Notes under the pieces: generated by a model | Told to the model about the DNA's origin: nothing | Databases searched by the model: none | The model's input: the letters and a program-made list of their open reading frames with translations, nothing else | Assembly (NCBI GenBank): GCA_019359235.1 | Contig: JAHHHT010000011.1 | Coordinates: 124,001 to 188,000 of the forward strand | DNA: 64,000 nt | Direction of reading: 5' to 3' | Source of the DNA: Oscillatoria princeps RMCB-10 | Lineage (GTDB): Bacteria > Cyanobacteriota > Cyanobacteriia > Cyanobacteriales > Oscillatoriaceae | Program-made: the position numbers and the translations under genes | Shown here: piece after piece, positions 3,666-61,749 of the stretch | How positions within the stretch are numbered: position 1 is the stretch's first letter | Layout of the letters: each line of letters starts with the position of its first letter

Positions 3666-3830
3666 GCACGGGTCAGGGCACTGGGCACTGGGCATTATGG
3701 CATTGGGAGAGGTTGGGCATCATCGCATTGGGCATCATCGCAAAAGGGCACTGCTGAAAATCTTCCCCATACCCCATGCTCTATGCCCCATGCGCTATGC
3801 CCCATGCGCCATGCGGGCGTGCGCCATGCG
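3666..3830. repeat. Degenerate GGGCATTGGG / CCCATGCCC tract
   Basis: Irregular iterations of gggcactgggcattatggca on the left face ccccatgctctatgcccc on the right, so the whole tract can fold back on itself. Similar tracts are at 15776-15896, 45360-45395 and 48407-48455. It fills the space between the small membrane protein and the convergent thioesterase gene. Confidence 0.65.
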
Positions 3831-3831
3831 C

Positions 3832-4290
3832 CTAAAGTCGCGCCAGCGCAGCCTCCAGTGCCGGTGGTAACTGGCGGACAATCTTGTTCTTGTGCCGGTC
3901 AACCGGCACCAGCGTCACCCGAGCGGTGAGATACAGCGCTTGGCCATCGGGCGACTGAATCTGGTACTCGAAGTTGAGGCGCACCCCCACCGGCTCCAGG
4001 CGCAGCCGCACCACAGCCGGCATCCCCATCCGCAGCGCCCGGTGGTAGCGCACCTGCAGCTCCACCACCGGCAGGTCGCACCCCAAAGCCACCAGCTCGG
4101 CAAACTCCAAACCCAGGGAGCGCAAGCACTCCAGCCGCGCTTCCTCCATCCAAGCAATGTAGGAACCGTGCCAGACAATGCCGGCGTAATCCGTGTGGTG
4201 CGGTTGCGCCCGCACTGGATATTCAAACCACCCCCCAGAGACAGGGCTAGCCGGTGGCTGTTGCGCTTGCGTTTGGTTTTTCTCAGACAC
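3832..4290 (-). CDS. Hotdog-fold acyl-CoA thioesterase (4HBT/YbgC type)
   Basis: A 152-residue thioesterase of the 4-hydroxybenzoyl-CoA thioesterase / YbgC branch. After a Gln/Pro-rich start, residues about 22-45 contain the family signature HTDYAGIVWHGSYIAWMEEA, whose Asp is the usual catalytic residue and whose GIVWHGSY forms the start of the central hotdog helix. The rest follows the five-strand pattern and ends ALEAALARL. In cyanobacteria a related enzyme hydrolyses dihydroxynaphthoyl-CoA in phylloquinone synthesis; whether this one does is open, and a general short-chain acyl-CoA thioesterase is equally possible. It stands alone between a repeat tract and the divergent stress protein gene. 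Confidence 0.8.
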   Translation of the reverse strand: MSEKNQTQAQQPPASPVSGGWFEYPVRAQPHHTDYAGIVWHGSYIAWMEEARLECLRSLGLEFAELVALGCDLPVVELQVRYHRALRMGMPAVVRLRLEPVGVRLNFEYQIQSPDGQALYLTARVTLVPVDRHKNKIVRQLPPALEAALARL

Positions 4291-15775: not shown

Positions 15776-15971
15776 TCATGGGGCATGGCGCATGGGGCGT
15801 GGCGCATGGGGCGTGGGGCGTGGGGCATCGGGCATCGGGCATCGGGCGTGGGGCGTGGGGCGTGGGGCGTGGGGCATCGGGCATCGGGCATCGGGTAAAA
15901 CAATCAATCCCCAATCCCAAATCCTTGCATCCAAAATCTCAAATCCCAAATCCCAAATCCTTGCATCCAAA
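15776..15971. repeat. Low-complexity GGGCATCGGGC and ATCCCAAATCC tracts
   Basis: About 120 bases of irregular ggggcatggcgcatggggc / gggcatcgggc units are followed by about 70 bases of ccaatcccaaatccttgca units. Both types recur elsewhere in the window (3666-3830; linker of the SUMT/HemD gene at 62890-62935). It fills the divergent promoter region of pyrD and the multi-GAF gene. Confidence 0.7.
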
Positions 15972-16036
15972 AGCTCTCCTAAGCTTTGAGGGATGCGAAA
16001 GAGTTCCCTGAAAGGCAGTACCGGTCGATAGATAAA

Positions 16037-20470: not shown

Positions 20471-20502
20471 GCCCCCTGGTGGTTATAACCACGGGTGGGG
20501 GC
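20471..20502 (-). terminator. Hairpin with T-run on the minus strand, ahead of the SWIM gene
   Basis: gccccc (20471-20476) pairs with gggggc (20497-20502), enclosing the perfect palindrome gtggttataaccac (20479-20492). Read on the minus strand it is followed by TTTTTCTTT, as in a rho-independent terminator. Read on the plus strand it is a strong 5' hairpin 30 bases before the start of the SWIM gene. Confidence 0.5.
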
Positions 20503-20532
20503 ACAAAAAATTATATCACAGGAGATTATATC

Positions 20533-21222
20533 ATGTCTGCGTTCCAAATCAGCTCGACCCTTCAATCCTATATGTTTTCCCAGGGCATCACCTGGACATT
20601 GCTGGCGGCCAAAGGCAAGGTAGCGGGCCCGATCGACGTCTGCCGACAGCAGCTAACCGTGGAAGTCTGGCCTAATGTCGTTTACGTCCGCCTGGAGAAG
20701 AACGCCATCCGGCGCGAGTGCCCCTGGGGAGTCTCCACCTTTATTTCCTACAAAGACTATTTAGAACATGCTATCACAGAAGCCTTTACCAAGGCAACAG
20801 GCATAAAAACAGACCGGATAAGTGTGAACTATTTCAAAGTTCAATCAGCAACCGACCCCAAGAGAAAACACTCCCTAATGCTGGAAAAACACGGCATTTC
20901 GTGCAGCTGCATGCGATACCAGTGGCTCGACCATCGCATTTGGTGCGAAGCCCCCCACCTGTACAAGCTGATCAAAGAAAACGAAATCTTGCAAGGCCAA
21001 ACCCCCTGCCATCACGCCGCAGCAGTCCTGAAATGGCTAGATTTGAAAAATTTCGCAGATTATTTCCAGGAGTGGCCCACCATCCAAGGGCAGATAATCA
21101 ACGAAGAGGATTACGAGGATGACGAGGATTACGAGGATGACGAGGATGACGAGGATGACGAGGATGACGAGGATGACGAGGATGACGAGGATGACGAGGA
21201 TGACAGCGAATTTTACGGGTAG
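20533..21222 (+). CDS. SWIM zinc-finger protein with acidic repeat tail
   Basis: A 229-residue protein. The central SWIM motif CxC...CxH is formed by C124, C126, C159 and H161 (ISCSCMRYQ ... TPCHHAAAV), expected to bind zinc and to mediate nucleic-acid or protein contact. From about residue 192 the tail is almost only Glu, Asp and Tyr, encoded by a 9-base tandem repeat (GAGGATGAC). The start is ATG 20533 with AGGAG 8 bases upstream; an upstream in-frame GTG lies within the hairpin. Cyanobacterial SWIM proteins of this size are mostly uncharacterised. A secA transcript reading through would be antisense to this gene and stopped by the terminator at 20471-20502. Confidence 0.75.
   Translation: MSAFQISSTLQSYMFSQGITWTLLAAKGKVAGPIDVCRQQLTVEVWPNVVYVRLEKNAIRRECPWGVSTFISYKDYLEHAITEAFTKATGIKTDRISVNYFKVQSATDPKRKHSLMLEKHGISCSCMRYQWLDHRIWCEAPHLYKLIKENEILQGQTPCHHAAAVLKWLDLKNFADYFQEWPTIQGQIINEEDYEDDEDYEDDEDDEDDEDDEDDEDDEDDEDDSEFYG
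21106..21204 (+). repeat. 9-bp coding tandem repeat (GAGGATGAC, about 11 units)
   Basis: The units encode Glu-Asp-Asp or Glu-Asp-Tyr and keep frame. The copy number could change by slippage without breaking the gene, altering only the length of the acidic tail. Confidence 0.9.
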
Positions 21223-21423: not shown

Positions 21424-24237
21424 TCAAACCATTTCCGACGCCGAAGCCTGCACCGGCTGCTGCATTTGGGGCTGGAACTGGAACAGAGAATAAACCACAT
21501 TCCGGCGAATGTCAGTCATCATATCCAAGAACAGCTCGTACCCCTCACTCTTGTACTCAATCAGCGGGTCCTTCTGACCGTAGCTGCGCAAGCCCACCGA
21601 CTCGCGCAGGGCGTCCATCGCCTGCAAGTGCTCGCGCCAGAGCGTATCAATCTGCTGGAGGATGAAGAACCGCTCAGCTTGGCGCATCAGCCCCGGCTGG
21701 ATTTGATCCACCTGAGCTTCCTTCAAATCGTAGGCAATCCGCACCTGCTCGTGCAAGAACGTCTTAATCTCATCCATCGACAGCTCCTCTATCTGCACCG
21801 GCTCCAGATCCGCCAGCAGATAGACAAACTCCTTCACCTTGCTCACCAAACTGGACAAATCCCACTCTTCCGAAGGCAAATCCGGGTTAACATACGCCTC
21901 AACGATGTCATCCATCGTCTTTTCAGCATACTTAATCACCTGCTCCTTGAGGTCAAGACCTTCCAGCACCCGCCGGCGCTCAGCATAGATAGCGCGGCGC
22001 TGGTTATTCATCACCTCATCGTACTCAAACACCTGCTTGCGGATGTCGTAATAATACGTCTCCACCTTTTTCTGAGCCCCTTCCAGAGAGCGAGTCAGCA
22101 TCCCCGACTCGATAGGCATATCCTCCTCAACCTGGAACATCTCCATCAGCCGGCTCACCCGGTCCCCGCCAAAAATCCGCAGCAAATTATCCTGCAAACT
22201 CAGGAAAAACCTAGTCGAGCCCGGGTCGCCCTGACGCCCGCAGCGCCCCCGCAACTGATTGTCAATGCGGCGGGATTCGTGGCGTTCCGTACCGATAACG
22301 TGCAGCCCTCCCAGCGTCACCACTTCATCGTGCTCGCGCTTGGTGTACTGCTCGTACTCCTGGCGGATCGCATTGTAAACCTCCCGCAGCTTTTGAATCA
22401 GCGGGTCTTTCGTAGGCGCTTTTTCCGAAGCCGTCGCCACCTTATCTTCGGCCTCAAGTTCCGCAAGCGAGCGCTCGCCGCACTGCCCCACGGCGAACTG
22501 CACTGCATCCTTGAGCTTTTGCTCAGTAACCTTAGACAGCTCAGTGGGGAAAATCTGGGGAGACGCCTTCCAAGTTTTGACTTTCTTCCCGGGGGCAAAG
22601 CCTTGGGGGTTGCGCCGGCGGTCCGCTCCCGGAACCCGGAGCACGCTGACATTCGCTTCATCTTCAGGCAGGACAACTGCCGGCATAAAGTATTCCCGCA
22701 CCTTCAGCCGCGCCATGTAGTCCGCGTTCCCGCCCAGAATGATATCCGTCCCGCGCCCCGCCATATTCGTAGCGATCGTCACCGCGCCTTTGCGCCCCGC
22801 TTGCGCCACAATTTCCGACTCTCGCTCCACATTTTCCGGCTTGGCGTTGAGCAGGTTGTGAGGGATACCGCGCTCGCGCAGCAGCACCGACAGGTGTTCC
22901 GAGTTTTCCACGCTCGTAGTCCCCACCAGCACCGGGCGTCCCTTTTCGTGCATCTCGGCGCACTCTTGAGCGACCGCCAGCCACTTGCCCCTTTCGGTTT
23001 TGTAGACCACATCCGGCAAATCCTTGCGTCCGGAGATCCGGTTGGTGGTGATTGCGGTCACTTCCAGGCTGTATATCTTCTCGAACTCCGCCTCTTCTGT
23101 TTTCGCCGTGCCGGTCATTCCGCCCAGCTTCGGGTACAGCAAGAAGAAGTTTTGATAAGTAATTGTCGCCAGCGTTTGGGTTTCTGGCTGGATGTCCACC
23201 CGTTCCTTGGCCTCAATGGCTTGGTGCAAGCCGTCGCTCCACCGGCGTCCTTGCAGCACCCGCCCGGTAAACTCATCGACAATCACCACCTCCCTGTCGA
23301 GGACGATGTAGTTTTTGTCCCTGATAAACAGCTCTTTTGCCTTCAGGGCGTTAAAAATGTAGTGCGCCCAGGGGTCATTGGGGTCGTAAAGATCCTTAAC
23401 TCCCAGCAGCCGCTCGGTTTCGGCAAACCCTTCGTCGCTCAACAGCACGTTGCGGGCTTTTTCGTCCACCTCGTAGTGCTCTTCCTTTTTCAGAGCGGCG
23501 GCGATGTCGGCGGCTCCCATGTACTTTTCTGTGGGGCGCTCTACTTGGCCCGAAATAATCAGCGGCGTGCGAGCTTCGTCAACGAGAATCGAGTCCACCT
23601 CGTCAATAATGGCGTAGTTGAAGGGGCGCTGCACCACCTCCGCCATCGATGTGGCCATATTGTCCCGCAGGTAGTCGAAGCCCAGCTCGCTGTTGGTGGC
23701 GTAGGTGATGTCGCAGCTGTAGTTCCTGCGGCGCTCGTCCGGGCTCATGCCCTGCTGAATCAGGCCCACTGTCAGTCCCAGGAAGCGGTGCACCTGTCCC
23801 ATCCACTCGGCGTCCCGGCGTGCCAGGTAGTCGTTGACGGTTACGACGTGTACGCCTTTGCCGGTGAGCGCGTTCAAGTAGGACGGCAGGGTGGCGACCA
23901 GGGTTTTTCCCTCACCGGTTTTCATCTCGGCGATTTGCCCTTTGTGCAGGATGGTGCCGCCGAGGATCTGGACGTCGAAGTGCCGCATGCCCAAAACTCG
24001 CCGCCCAGCTTCCCGAACCACCGCAAAGGCTTCCGGCAGCAGCTCGTCGAGCACTTCAGCGGTTTCACTGGGGGATTTGGCTTTTTCAAGCTTCTGTTTG
24101 AACTCCGCTGTCTTGGCTCTCAATGCCTCATCGGAGAGCGCCTTGACGTCTTCCTCCAGGATGTTGACTTCAGTGACGAGCGGCTGATATCTCTTGAGCT
24201 TGCGTGCGTTGGGATCGCCGAGCAATTTTTTCAGCAT
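21424..24237 (-). CDS. secA: Preprotein translocase ATPase SecA
   Basis: SecA drives Sec-dependent export through SecYEG by ATP hydrolysis; in cyanobacteria it serves both plasma and thylakoid membranes. The 937-residue length is normal. Walker A MKTGEGKT is at 105-112, followed by [20 protein letters not shown]; the DEAD-like box is [20 protein letters not shown]. Later, [14 protein letters not shown] and [20 protein letters not shown] of the second motor domain are intact. The C-terminus ends [10 protein letters not shown] without the Cys-rich zinc-binding tail of the E. coli protein, as usual in cyanobacteria. A long open frame on the opposite strand is a shadow of this gene. secA is transcribed toward the convergent SWIM gene. 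Confidence 0.98.
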
Positions 24238-24354: not shown

Positions 24355-24870
24355 TTATGGAGAATTTTGCCACTCCGGTGCGAGACTGCGGAAATTGTAC
24401 TGGCCGGCACCCGGGTGACAGGTGACGCAGCTGCCGGTTAAGTTTGTCTGGGGCAGTTTGACTCGCGGGTGGAGGGCTTTGAAATATCTCGATTTGGCCA
24501 GCCTGTAGGGCACCTCTTCGTCCTCGGCGTGGGGGCGGGAGAACGCCCGCAGGTAGTTCCAGATGATGACGCGGGGGGGACTCACCGGCAGGTTGAGCTG
24601 CACACCGTAGTGCTGCGGGTCTTGCAGCAGCCGCCGCCAGGTTTCGCCCGGCATGACTTCCGGCGGCAAGCCCACGTGGCAGCCGGCGCAGTTTTCCAGG
24701 TAAAGTTCGGCTCCCAGCTGGAAGCTCTCCGGTATCGGGTCAACCGTGCCGGCTGCCGGTATCTCTGCCGCTCGCACCAGCCCCCACCCCACCGCCACAC
24801 TCCACAGCCCCACGAGCAACACCAGCACTGCCGGCCTGCCCTTACTTCTTAATATTTTCTTTATTGACAT
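24355..24870 (-). CDS. Diheme cytochrome c, exported
   Basis: A 171-residue periplasmic or lumenal protein. An N-terminal signal or anchor (about 13-34, AVLVLLVGLWSVAVGWGLV) ends at AAEIPAAG. Two haem-c sites are present: CAGCH (61-65) and CVTCH (148-152). Between them is a 'diheme cytochrome' type region with TWRRLLQDPQHYGVQL and VIIWNYLRAFSRP. It probably carries electrons at low potential; the partner is unknown. It is upstream of secA on the same strand with a 117-base gap. Confidence 0.85.
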   Translation of the reverse strand: MSIKKILRSKGRPAVLVLLVGLWSVAVGWGLVRAAEIPAAGTVDPIPESFQLGAELYLENCAGCHVGLPPEVMPGETWRRLLQDPQHYGVQLNLPVSPPRVIIWNYLRAFSRPHAEDEEVPYRLAKSRYFKALHPRVKLPQTNLTGSCVTCHPGAGQYNFRSLAPEWQNSP

Positions 24871-24918
24871 AACTCGAACTATATACTATATTAGTAGCCT
24901 TATTGCTTAGGACAAGAA

Positions 24919-24952
24919 GAGCTCGGTCGCAGGGGATCTCGGTCGCAGGGGA
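24919..24952. repeat. Direct repeat CTCGGTCGCAGGGGA x2
   Basis: gagctcggtcgcagggga is followed at once by tctcggtcgcagggga. The same word occurs twice at 6232-6266. Confidence 0.7.
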
Positions 24953-25076
24953 GACCGGCCATGCAGAACCTGGATCTGTCTGAGATGTCCCAATGTCCTT
25001 GAGAGCAAGCATTCTGGCCTTGTCCATGACTGAGCTGTCCATTGCTATCACTCCACTTGGCGGACTTGGCGTCTTG

Positions 25077-26206
25077 GCGGTTCCTTATTCCGGTGCTAGC
25101 TGCACCCCCTCAAACCGGCGTGTAGTCGAGACATCAACCAAAACGCCTCTCAAATTTAGTCATCTCCGAAAGAATGGTCACAAAATCCGCCTGGCTTTTT
25201 GTGAGAAGCTTTTTGTCGTAAATCAGAAATGTGTGCCCATTGGGCACACAAAATAGCTCCCACATTTGTCAATACCCGAACGCCCAGTGCCGAATGCGAT
25301 CATGCCCCATCTATATGATAAAGCCACTTGGCTTCCCGCATGCGTCCACCCTGCGGGAAGCCGCCGCGTCCTGTGGCGGTTCCTTATTCCGGTGCTAGCT
25401 GCACCCCCTCAAACCGGCGTGTAGTCGAGACATCAACCAAAACGCCTCTCAAATTTAGTCATCTCCGAAAGAATGGTCACAAAATCCGCCTGGCTTTTTG
25501 TGAGAAGCTTTTTGTCGTAAATCAGAAATGTGTGCCCATTGGGCACACAAAATAGCTCCCACATTTGTCAATACCCGAACGCCCAGTGCCGAATGCGATC
25601 ATGCCCCAGCTATATGATAAAGCCACTTGGCTTCCCGCATGCGTCTGCCCTGCGGGAAGCCGCCGCGTCTTGTGGCGGTTCCTTGTTCCGGTGCTAGCTG
25701 CACCCCCTCAAACCGGCGTGCGGTCGAGACATCAACCAAAACGCCTCTCAAATTTAGTCATCTCCGAAAGAATGGTCACAAAATCCGCCTGGCTTTTTGT
25801 GAGAAGCTTTTTGTCGTAAATCAGAAATGTGTGCCCATTGGGCACACAAAATAGCTCCCACATTTGTCAATACCCGAACGCCCAGTGCCGAATGCGATCA
25901 TGCCCCAGCTATATGATAAAGCCACTTGGCTTCCCGCATGCGTCCACCCTGCGGGAAGCCGCCGCGTCCTGTGGCGGTTCCTTGTTCCGGTGCTAGCTGC
26001 ACCCCCTCAAACCGGCGTGTAGTCGAGACATCAACCAAAACGCCTCTCAAATTTAGTCATCTCCGAAAGAATGGTCAGCAAAATCAGCATTGGTTTTTGT
26101 GAGAAGCTTTTTGTCGTAAATCAGAAATGTGTGCCCATTGGGCACACAAAATAGCTCCCACATTTGTCAATACCCGAACGCTTAGTGCCCAATGCGATCA
26201 TGCCCA
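25077..26206. repeat. Four tandem copies of a 299-bp unit
   Basis: Units start at 25077, 25376, 25675 and 25974, exactly 299 bases apart; the fourth is partial (about 233 bases) and the most diverged. Each unit begins gcggttcctt and contains two hairpins: tgtgtgccca/ttgggcacaca, and ggcttcccgca/tgcgggaagcc in the three full units. On the minus strand each has TTGACA followed by a gggagctattttgtg segment. A frame of about 75 codons per unit is open on the plus strand but has no ribosome-binding site or known motif. The array lies downstream of the MoxR gene and ends 14 bases before its stop. It may be a non-coding RNA array or the result of local duplication. Confidence 0.9.
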
Positions 26207-26220
26207 ATCCCCACCCCCAA

Positions 26221-27129
26221 CTAAGGAATGGGAACGGAGCGCAGGAGCCGCTCGACGACAGTTTTGGCCCTGCGCCCACCGGCAGGGATGAGCCGGTGGG
26301 AGAGTACCGGCACAGCGAGAAACTTGACATCATCGGGAATAGCGTACTCCCGACCGGCAAGAAACGCCAGGGCTTGCGTGGAGCGCTGCAGGGCAACCGC
26401 ACCGCGAGGGCTGACGCCGAGGGTAATTTCTTCATCTTCCCTTGTCGCCCGCACCAGGTTGAGGATGTACTGCTGCAAAGAGGTTTCCAGCTTGACTTTA
26501 CCGCAGAGCCGGCGCAGTTCCAGCACTTCCTCCAGAGCGATGCAAGGCTGGAGCTCCTCAACGGTGACGCCTTCCTGAAGCCGCTGCAGCATCTGGAGCT
26601 CTTCGGTTTCCGTGGGATACCCCAAAGAGAGGGAGAGGGCGAAGCGGTCCATCTGCGCCTCAGGCAGGGGAAAAGTGCCTTGATACTCGATAGGGTTCTG
26701 AGTGGCAATCACAAAAAAAGGAGTGGGAACCGGACGGGTGACGCCATCCACGGTGACTTGGCGCTCTTCCATCACTTCCAGCAAAGCGGACTGGGTGCGG
26801 GGGGTGGCGCGGTTGATTTCGTCGGCGAGCAAGACGTTGGCAAACACCGGTCCGGGGAGGAATTCAAACTCGCCGCTGCGGGGGTTCCAGATGTTGGTGC
26901 CGGTGATGTCTGTGGGGAGGAGGTCCGGGGTGCACTGAATCCGCTGAAATTTGCCGGCTATCGAGCGGGCCAGGGATTTGGCCAGCAGGGTTTTGCCGAC
27001 GCCGGGGACGTCTTCCAGCAGGGCGTGGCCACCGCCTAGCAGGGCCACCAGGACTAGACGGATAGCCTCCGCTTTCCCGACGATAGTCTGGCCCAGATTT
27101 TTCGTCAGCCGCTCGATATTTTCCCTCAT
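26221..27129 (-). CDS. MoxR-family AAA+ ATPase
   Basis: A 302-residue chaperone-like ATPase. Walker A is VPGVGKTLLAKSLA (about 41-54), Walker B LLADEINRATPRTQSALLEV (about 100-119), and sensor 1 FFVIATQNPIEYQGT, with the arginine finger in EAQMDRFALSL. MoxR proteins help assemble or activate partner complexes, usually with a von Willebrand factor A protein; none is encoded in this window. The gene is last of a minus-strand run after the metallo-hydrolase and ribF (gap 91 bases to ribF), and its stop lies just beside the 299-bp tandem array. Confidence 0.93.
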   Translation of the reverse strand: MRENIERLTKNLGQTIVGKAEAIRLVLVALLGGGHALLEDVPGVGKTLLAKSLARSIAGKFQRIQCTPDLLPTDITGTNIWNPRSGEFEFLPGPVFANVLLADEINRATPRTQSALLEVMEERQVTVDGVTRPVPTPFFVIATQNPIEYQGTFPLPEAQMDRFALSLSLGYPTETEELQMLQRLQEGVTVEELQPCIALEEVLELRRLCGKVKLETSLQQYILNLVRATREDEEITLGVSPRGAVALQRSTQALAFLAGREYAIPDDVKFLAVPVLSHRLIPAGGRRAKTVVERLLRSVPIP

Positions 27130-29410: not shown

Positions 29411-29515
29411 CTCCGCAGGCGGCGGGGCAGGGGGGCAGGGGGGCAGGGGGCAGGGGGCAGGGGGCAGGGGGCAGGGGGGCAAGGGACAGGGGGGCAAGGG
29501 ACAGGGGGGCAGGTT
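29411..29515. repeat. G-rich tract (GGGGGCAGG units)
   Basis: Over 100 bases of iterated ggggggcagggggcagg-type units on the plus strand, upstream of the metallo-hydrolase gene. The spacing of G runs would permit G-quadruplexes in single-stranded DNA or RNA. Confidence 0.8.
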
Positions 29516-30395: not shown

Positions 30396-30632
30396 GATCG
30401 CTCGCACAACCTTTCTTAAGCATTTTGAACAGGGGAGCGCCCCGATTTGGGAAATACACCGGCGGGCTGTGTTCGTGTCCCTTTTATCGGGAAACCCCCC
30501 ACCCCTGACGCCTGACGCCTGACCCCTCGCCGCTGTCCCCTGACCGCTGACCCCCAATCGGTCACGCTTGGGTCTTTTGCGCTGCGGTGTCTTTCCGATA
30601 CACTCAGGTGTGGACAGGCAGCTGTAAAACTG

Positions 30633-40899: not shown

Positions 40900-41083
40900 T
40901 ATAGCAGTAGCCACTTAGGTTAGGACATTAGACATTAAGGGCCGGCTTAGCCTCCCCTGCGGATATACCGAGGGGGATAATATAAGTACCCACGGGAAAA
41001 ATGGCGTAGGACATGTCCCTGATGTCCTTGGCTGTCCTTGGCAGTACGCCTGATGTCCTAATCAATATAGCTGCTGCTATACT
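40900..41083. mobile_element. Possible TATAGCAGTAGCC-type MITE, diverged copy
   Basis: The left end tatagcagtagccacttagg matches the element at 61236-61352. The right end (gctgctgctata) gives only a 12-base inverted match, and the inside is unlike that element. It is tentative. Confidence 0.35.
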
Positions 41084-57001: not shown

Positions 57002-58162
57002 TTATAGCCGGTGCGTCTGCTTTTGCAACTCGTCGATTTGGGACTGCACCCTTTGGTAATCAGCCATCTTACCCTGTTCCTTGTAGATGGAAGCCGCTTT
57101 TTGCAAATCCTCAAGCGCTTCTTTCAACTGTCCCAGTTTACTGTGAGCGTTCCCCCGCCGGTAGTGGGCACCGGCATTTTTGGGGTCAAGTTCGATCGCT
57201 TTGCTGCTGTCTGCGAGCGCTCCTTGATAATCTGACACGGCGTAGCGGACGAGACTGCGGCTAGTGTAAGCCTCCCCATCCCGGGGATTGCTCTCCAGAG
57301 CCTTGGTGAAATCCGCGATCGCGCCCTGGTAATCCTTTATGGCGTAGCGGGCATTCCCCCGCAGGCGGTAGGCTTCCCCGTCGCTGGGATTTGCCAAAAG
57401 CGCCCGGGTGCAGTCCTCAGCGGCGGCGGCGTAGTCTCTCAGGGCGTAGCGAGCGGCTCCCCGGTGTCTGTAAGCCAGCGCGTCGTTGGGATTGCGGGAG
57501 AGCACCTGGCTGTAATCCTCAAGCGCAGCTCTGTAGTCTCCAAGGGCGTAGTGAGCGTTCCCCCGCCGGTAGTAGCTGTCCGCTCCCTCCGGATTGCGCC
57601 GCACCGCCTCGGTGTAATCCGCCAGCGCCGCCCTGTAGTCTCTCAAGGCGTAGTGAGCGTTCCCCCGCCGGTAGTAAGTGTCTGCTCCCTCCGGATTGCG
57701 CCGCACCGACTGGGTGAAATCTGCCACCGCCTCGGCATATTTTCCCGAGGCGTAGTAGGCATTTCCCCGCCGGTAGTGGGCATCTGCGTCGTTGGGATTG
57801 CGCTCTAGAGCCGCGCTGTAATCTTTCAGGGCGGCTTCATACTCGCGCAGGGCGTAGTTGCTATTCCCCCGCTGGAAATAAGCCGCCGCGTCGCGGGGAT
57901 TTTTCTTTATAACTTGGCTGAACGCCTCCCGCGCTCCCTGAAAATCTCCCCGCTTCAGCAGCTCTAAACCCCGCTCGTAGTCACTTTTGCTCAGTGCTGG
58001 CTCTCTCACCCGAACCGCCTGAATCGCCGGCGCAGCAACCGGCTCCCTGACATCTGAAGCTGCCTGGGCTATCCCCGCCGCCGAGAAGCTCAGTCCCAGT
58101 ATTGCGCCCAGCCCCGCGGCGCACCGCTGAAGCGGATGGTTGCGCAAGAACTTCCGACTCAT
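57002..58162 (-). CDS. Exported TPR-repeat protein
   Basis: A 386-residue protein with a clear signal peptide (MSRKFLRNHPLQRCAAGLGA, hydrophobic to about residue 35 at GIAQAAS) and about nine TPR units from residue 58, many with the almost identical YYRRGNAHYALRDYRAALAD pattern, suggesting recent internal duplication. The start is ATG 58162 with GGGAG 7 bases upstream; a longer frame to 58222 is not supported. It is related to the TPR gene at 55698-56909 (same GNA/GNVR and DFTKAL words), 92 bases downstream of it, so the two may be an operon. The role is probably protein-protein contact in the periplasm. Confidence 0.85.
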   Translation of the reverse strand: MSRKFLRNHPLQRCAAGLGAILGLSFSAAGIAQAASDVREPVAAPAIQAVRVREPALSKSDYERGLELLKRGDFQGAREAFSQVIKKNPRDAAAYFQRGNSNYALREYEAALKDYSAALERNPNDADAHYRRGNAYYASGKYAEAVADFTQSVRRNPEGADTYYRRGNAHYALRDYRAALADYTEAVRRNPEGADSYYRRGNAHYALGDYRAALEDYSQVLSRNPNDALAYRHRGAARYALRDYAAAAEDCTRALLANPSDGEAYRLRGNARYAIKDYQGAIADFTKALESNPRDGEAYTSRSLVRYAVSDYQGALADSSKAIELDPKNAGAHYRRGNAHSKLGQLKEALEDLQKAASIYKEQGKMADYQRVQSQIDELQKQTHRL

Positions 58163-61235: not shown

Positions 61236-61352
61236 TATAGCAGTAGCCACTTAGATTACGACGTAGGACAGGCGTCTCGCCTGTCCCAGAGACCTTGAGG
61301 GATCGGAGGGAACGCAATTCTTACGTCCGTGCCCTAAGTGGCTACTGCTATA
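61236..61352. mobile_element. MITE-like element with perfect 19-base inverted ends
   Basis: tatagcagtagccacttag (61236-61254) and ctaagtggctactgctata (61334-61352) are perfect inverted repeats. Inside is the GACAGGCGTCTCGCCTGTC palindrome (61264-61288) and a ggatcggagggaacgcaat segment. No transposase is encoded. The element begins directly after the stop of the 807-residue gene. Confidence 0.75.
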
Positions 61353-61396: not shown

Positions 61397-61749
61397 CTCG
61401 AACGATGGAGCTCTGAACTCGAACGATGGAGCTCTGAACTCGAACGATGGAGTTCTGAACTCGAACGATGGAGCTCTGAACTCGAATGATGGAGCTCTGA
61501 ACTCGAACGATGGAGCTCTGAACTCGAACGATGGAGCTCTGAACTCGAACGATGGAGCTCTGAACTCGAACGATGGAGCTCTGAACTCGAACGATGGAGC
61601 TCTGAACTCGAATGATGGAGCTCTGAACTCGAACGATGGAGCTCTGAACTCGAACGATGGAGCTCTGAGCTCGAACGATGGAGCTCTGAGCTCGAACGAT
61701 GGAGCTCTGAGCTCGAACGATGGAGCTCTGAGCTCGAACGATGGAGCTT
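61397..61749. repeat. 21-bp minisatellite, about 17 units
   Basis: The unit ctcgaacgatggagctctgaa is repeated with a few variants (acgatggag/atgatggag); the last four to five units carry GAGCTC in place of GAACTC at the junction. Being a multiple of three, it is open in two plus frames and on the minus strand, but there is no ribosome-binding site or known protein. It lies between two MITE-like copies. Confidence 0.95.

Follow-up and report, generated by a model that had tools for sequence, protein, structure and literature searches.

Array between moxR and a cytochrome c gene

The window is the whole 64,000-nucleotide stretch of Oscillatoria princeps RMCB-10 DNA that was analysed. A tandem array occupies the gap between moxR (26221–27129), identified by Pfam as an AAA_3 ATPase gene, and a dihaem cytochrome c gene (Pfam DHC, 24355–24870). 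Both genes and secA (21424–24237), which comes after the cytochrome gene, are on the minus strand. The array was detected by TRF as a single one at 25075–26205 (period 299, 3.8 copies, 97% matches, score 2148), and the moxR stop codon lies 15 bp from it. Its copy number is that of one assembly.

The array is non-coding. Its units, three complete ones of 299 bp and a truncated fourth, were delimited from the TRF call and unit identities, with spacing also used for the complete ones, and given no strand. Units 1 to 3 lie at 25075–25373, 25374–25672, and 25673–25971. Unit 4 (25972–26205, 234 bp) is cut off at unit position 233. Starts are spaced 299/299/299 over the first 111 nt of the units, which bears out the tandem 299-bp units described in the first-pass annotation, and one extra base in unit 4 puts its later part 300 from the preceding copy. 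Identity among all four units is 0.96–0.99; units 1–3 are 0.98–0.99 identical to one another and 0.96–0.97 to unit 4. Unit 4 is probably the resident copy, since it is the most diverged of the four and continues into the flank on the moxR side. Ahead of the array are TTGGCG repeats, and TGGCGGTTCC occurs within the window at the four unit starts only.

Each unit contains a plus-strand hairpin element recognized by covariance model R1, at 25151–25260, 25450–25559, and 25749–25858 (71.9 bits each) and at 26048–26158 in unit 4 (72.7 bits). The palindrome TGTGTGCCCATTGGGCACACA, already reported for every unit, is present in all four copies (25230–25250, 25529–25549, 25828–25848, and 26128–26148; no strand assigned) and is terminator-like on the minus strand. 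It is contained in palindrome module H (TTGACA...CTATTTTGTG-palindrome-CACATTTCTGA), matched on the minus strand by model R2 at 25217–25274, 25516–25573, 25815–25872, and 26115–26172 (68.9 bits each). The second hairpin that had been noticed, GGCTTCCCGCA...TGCGGGAAGCC, was located by sequence match, with no strand assigned, in the three full units only (25330–25362, 25629–25661, and 25928–25960); it is missing from unit 4 and from the rest of the genome. On either strand, one unit folds more stably than its dinucleotide shuffles (z = −3.1 each).

The minus-strand TTGACA site of the first-pass annotation is indeed in every unit (e.g., 25267–25272), but a promoter scan found no sigma-70-like promoter inside the array, and a promoter role for the TTGACA was rejected because no −10 lies at 16–18 bp. 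The statement that no recognized protein is encoded also held: four array-overlapping ORFs, including a 75-aa ORF repeated in the units, had no Pfam match, and a protein-coding repeat was rejected. Rfam gave no match at E ≤ 1 in 24800–26400 and none at gathering across the window, so a known RNA family was rejected as well. Elsewhere in the window, 11 copies of GAGGATGAC at 21106–21204 encode the acidic tail (E/D repeats) of the ORF at 20479–21222, and 102-bp tandem repeats at 57489–57783 probably code for protein on the minus strand.

A dispersed hairpin element of the genus

Comparison of one unit with its own genome revealed two kinds of dispersed pieces. The first is the right end of the unit, where ...CCCTGCGGGAAGCCGC... 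continues into TGGCGGTT; this short repeat has relatives in further families of the same order. The second is ~118 nt long and comprises an imperfect inverted-repeat core of ~66 nt, TCCGAAAGAATGGTTTTTACAAA...TTTTGTATATATGCTTTCTTCCGGAA, followed by the palindrome. The 299-bp unit is a mosaic of dispersed repeats.

R1 models this ~118-nt hairpin element. At a threshold of E ≤ 0.01 it gave 67 matches in the RMCB-10 genome, 105 in Oscillatoria sp. PCC 10802, and 34 in the Prado101 MAG, counts that include some reverse-strand shadows of the same inverted repeats. This covariance search, which had been proposed in the first-pass annotation, found no copy of the element outside the genus in a sample of 120 genomes of the order, 118 of which belong to other genera, and module H was absent from all 59 other genomes of the order that were searched. 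Phage and plasmid origins were rejected; the core pattern was unmatched in viral contigs, and no plasmid match was found.

All 39 RMCB-10 element loci outside the window are intergenic according to a gene caller based on codon usage, which also finds the window's known genes. Flanking genes are divergent at 8 loci, convergent at 9, and codirectional at 21, with one of the 39 at a contig end, which is what random placement predicts. Across these loci the family does not prefer either strand relative to the genes. At 20 of the 39 there are two or more copies, always in direct orientation and 171–264 bp apart. At least 35 have an element locus with a matching flank in PCC 10802, and 4 have none among the PCC 10802 element loci compared. 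This sharing shows the family to be old and, for the most part, vertically inherited. Heptamer-type runs (CATGGGG, GGGGCAG, and similar) occur in the window at 3765–3832, 15777–15976, 29424–29513, and 30494–30554, and runs of the same kind often adjoin hairpin elements at other loci.

Identity to PCC 10802 at 28 aligned loci is 0.897 in the core, a value depressed by three loci that look misaligned (L119, L112, and L084), 0.835 in the two-core spacer, and 0.784 in the right part, compared with 0.780 in other intergenic sequence (11% gaps) and 0.872 at third codon positions. At 23 of the 28 loci the core is more conserved than the intergenic sequence around it, which suggests something more than a passive family. 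Covariation in the element stems exceeds that of shuffled and slid controls, with the clearest signal in the palindrome and at the core tip. Structure is conserved in relatives, where the first-pass annotation had considered that it might not be. Because the counts come from model-fitted alignments and are inflated by relatedness, and because palindrome repair by template switching could mimic covariation, this signal supports the hairpins and is no proof of RNA. Assignment of a putative RNA strand from G-T versus A-C mismatches failed, as the strand-neutral count of 25:15 is not significant for either strand.

Subfamily S2 lacks the palindrome and mostly consists of two cores with a conserved spacer. 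Its left cores differ from its right cores, and each kind groups with cores in the same position at other loci instead of with the partner beside it: in 10 of 12 and in 17 of 18 cases (27 of 30 in total) the closest core holds the same position at a different locus. Such position-wise clustering indicates that the S2 dimer spread as a unit. TTTTGTATATATGCTTTCTTCCGGA is nearly invariant, and the outer arms of S2 are conserved more in sequence than in pairing. Between species, core identity is ~0.94 in dimers and ~0.88 in single copies when the three misaligned-looking loci are left out, and 0.90 and 0.86 when they are included. The consensus fold of the whole dimer is weak (−18 kcal/mol, covariation term almost nil), and a large consensus RNA fold of the dimer was rejected on these values.

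In PCC 10802, near-identical S2 dimers (97–99%) adjoin or sit between 163-bp TA-flanked MITEs with ends TATAGCAG...CTGCTATA. The composite of dimer and MITE, ~620 bp, is 97–99% identical at four places with unrelated flanks (L146:1373–1991, L181:1330–1947, L167:1407–1939, and L152:1318–2031). The arrangement is as if two MITEs had carried the dimer, and dispersal with MITEs is one visible route in this genome. The same MITE-type ends (TATAGCAGTA..CACTTAGG) are found in the window at 40900, 61236–61352, and 61885, with none expected by chance. Between two such ends, at 61397–61748, lies a 21-bp tandem unit (CTCGAACGATGGAGCTCTGAA; 16.8 copies, 97% matches).

Two functional readings of the family were weighed against these data. 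The dimeric form may, tentatively, be a functional multi-copy element unique to the genus, acting either as a structured RNA of ~300 nt or as a paired nucleoprotein site, with the moxR array as a derived, tandemly amplified member. Support comes from the positional clustering of S2 cores, the near-invariant TTTTGTATATATGCTTTCTTCCGGA, and the higher identity of dimer cores than of single-copy cores. If functional, the dimer would represent a new class of genus-specific multi-copy element. It is unlikely that the elements are genes for a structured-RNA family, transcribed per copy or per dimer, with the moxR array as a multi-copy RNA locus; a family of near-identical RNAs from the array had been one proposal of the first-pass annotation. 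In favour are conserved hairpins with two-sided changes, the higher conservation of the core than of the sequence around it, and a placement that does not follow gene direction, as would suit an independent gene. However, no conserved promoter was recognized, Rfam gave no match, mismatches (25:15) do not resolve a strand, the whole-dimer fold is weak, and the S2 outer arms keep sequence over pairing.

The moxR gap in three species

Genes on both sides of the moxR gap are 91–95% identical among relatives, yet three species hold three different arrays. In the Prado101 gap there are two complete units (291 and 301 bp, ~295) with the same layout as those of RMCB-10; the contig breaks off within the array. 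These units are 0.80 identical to each other and 0.72–0.74 to the RMCB-10 full units; overall, RMCB-10 and Prado101 units share 70–77% identity. The PCC 10802 gap contains a tandem 128-bp unit made of two related 64-bp halves, with 11.2 copies in the longest stretch, more past a sequencing gap, and a dozen or more in total. This unit retains module H and lacks the core. Palindrome stems vary by species yet stay paired (GTGTGCCC/GGGCACAC, GTGTACAA/TTGTACAC, and GTGTACC/GGTACAC). The hairpin module is all that the three arrays have in common. Module H also forms arrays at other sites, with 86-bp spacing in PCC 10802 (C4:681–682 kb) and 118-bp spacing in genome G000 (C8:470–474 kb). H matches ~131 bp apart over 4.4 kb at C5:44076–48489 of PCC 10802 make up a further large array.

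A young duplication had been one proposal of the first-pass annotation. The copies are indeed recent or recently homogenized, being 96–99% alike compared with 70–77% identity to Prado101. That the array is merely a young neutral duplication of unique intergenic sequence, as such similarity, the one truncated copy, and the lack of recognized coding potential might suggest, is nevertheless highly improbable and largely refuted: the sequence belongs to an old dispersed family, and tandem copies recur in the gap of three species and at 20 of the 39 other RMCB-10 loci. The unit is not single-copy elsewhere, a possibility the annotation had also raised. The array looks like fast-changing, satellite-like sequence rather than a gene.

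Read in the moxR direction, the palindrome of each copy resembles a terminator (9 pairs, loop of 3). Four such hairpins, with tails TTTCTGATTT, lie from 15 bp to about 1 kb past the moxR stop, and the palindromes are kept in the gap in the same orientation in Prado101 and PCC 10802. These observations agree with part of a further suggestion, that the array is a transcript-end buffer whose repeated terminators end or protect moxR transcripts and shield the cytochrome c–secA genes. It is unlikely, however, that the array exists for this purpose, as the element family-wide has no orientation preference and does not favour sites following genes on that strand, the tail is just moderately T-rich and weaker in PCC 10802, and a single hairpin would suffice.

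The moxR gap offers a clear example from nature of satellite-like turnover in bacteria. With the three-species comparison it becomes possible to test whether tandem expansion is driven by palindromes, and whether constrained cyanobacterial intergenic hairpin repeats serve any host function.

Origin of the array and comparison with known repeats

The array probably arose by local tandem amplification of a non-coding segment carrying a genus-specific, REP/BIME-like dispersed hairpin repeat. This origin is favoured by dispersed copies in the same genome that are restricted to the genus in the searches made, by the intergenic position of all 39 other loci and the tandem copies at 20, and by the sharing of at least 35 loci with PCC 10802. 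Core conservation above intergenic levels at 23 of 28 loci, covariation above controls, differing arrays in one gap between genes that are 91–95% identical, TGGCGGTTCC at the four unit starts only, and terminator-like hairpins on the moxR strand are further points in its favour. Weighing against it, core conservation hints at a family that is more than passive, no transposase could be linked to the element itself, and the covariation comes from model-fitted alignments and could be mimicked by template switching.

As judged from the array boundaries, unequal recombination or replication slippage at short repeats (TGGCGGTT/TGGCGGTTCC at unit starts, TTGGCG ahead of the array) may have duplicated the segment. 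Palindromes in single-stranded DNA would favour such events, and recombination may afterwards have homogenized the copies and kept them alike. Less certainly, the palindromes could serve moxR transcription as repeated 3′-end or terminator hairpins, which would be a side effect of the array and not the family's role.

No description of this repeat was found in a literature search that mostly lay outside subscription papers, and an earlier description is possible. Like MITEs, the element is dispersed, non-coding, and built of inverted repeats. Its core is an inverted repeat, but no defined ends, terminal inverted repeats or target duplication were seen for the element itself, whereas separate MITEs flank one dimer subgroup in PCC 10802; most of its loci are old. 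Among cyanobacterial repeats, LTRR repeats have been named (PMC2408588) and small dispersed repeats (SDR) cited (PMC3116915). As in SDR and LTRR/STRR, short repeats with hairpins occupy intergenic positions, some in tandem, and the right end of the 299-bp unit holds a short dispersed repeat of the SDR kind. STRR/LTRR units are heptamers or 37-mers, whereas the arrays described here have units of 64–299 bp, and the searches turned up no relative of the core in any other genus.

REPs are intergenic, palindromic, and often paired and in tandem arrays (PMC3733652, PMC3116915), with a unit of 20–40 bp (PMC3733652). Similar to REP/BIME/REPIN sequences, the element is extragenic (39 of 39 other RMCB-10 loci) without coding content, and palindromic, with covarying hairpins, high copy number, pairs, and tandem arrays. 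Y1 transposase genes are present in both the RMCB-10 and PCC 10802 genomes, and with the shared intergenic, palindromic, paired, and tandem character they would fit a classical REP/REPIN system mobilized by a Y1 (RAYT) transposase. Such a system is very unlikely here, and RAYT mobilization was rejected, because none of 14 Y1 transposase loci carries the element, 1.5-kb flanks included; moreover, most element loci are old and shared. In contrast to REPIN inverted doublets, all pairs are direct and 171–264 bp apart. The element (~118 nt, core ~66 nt, two-core form ~300 nt) is also far longer than a REP, is limited to one genus, and has no recognized GTAG/CGTC tag. It is not filed as a REP because it differs, as tested, in three features that define REPs, namely unit length, Y1 transposase link, and inverted doublets, and it is rated instead as a variant of intergenic hairpin repeats that works like REP/BIME.
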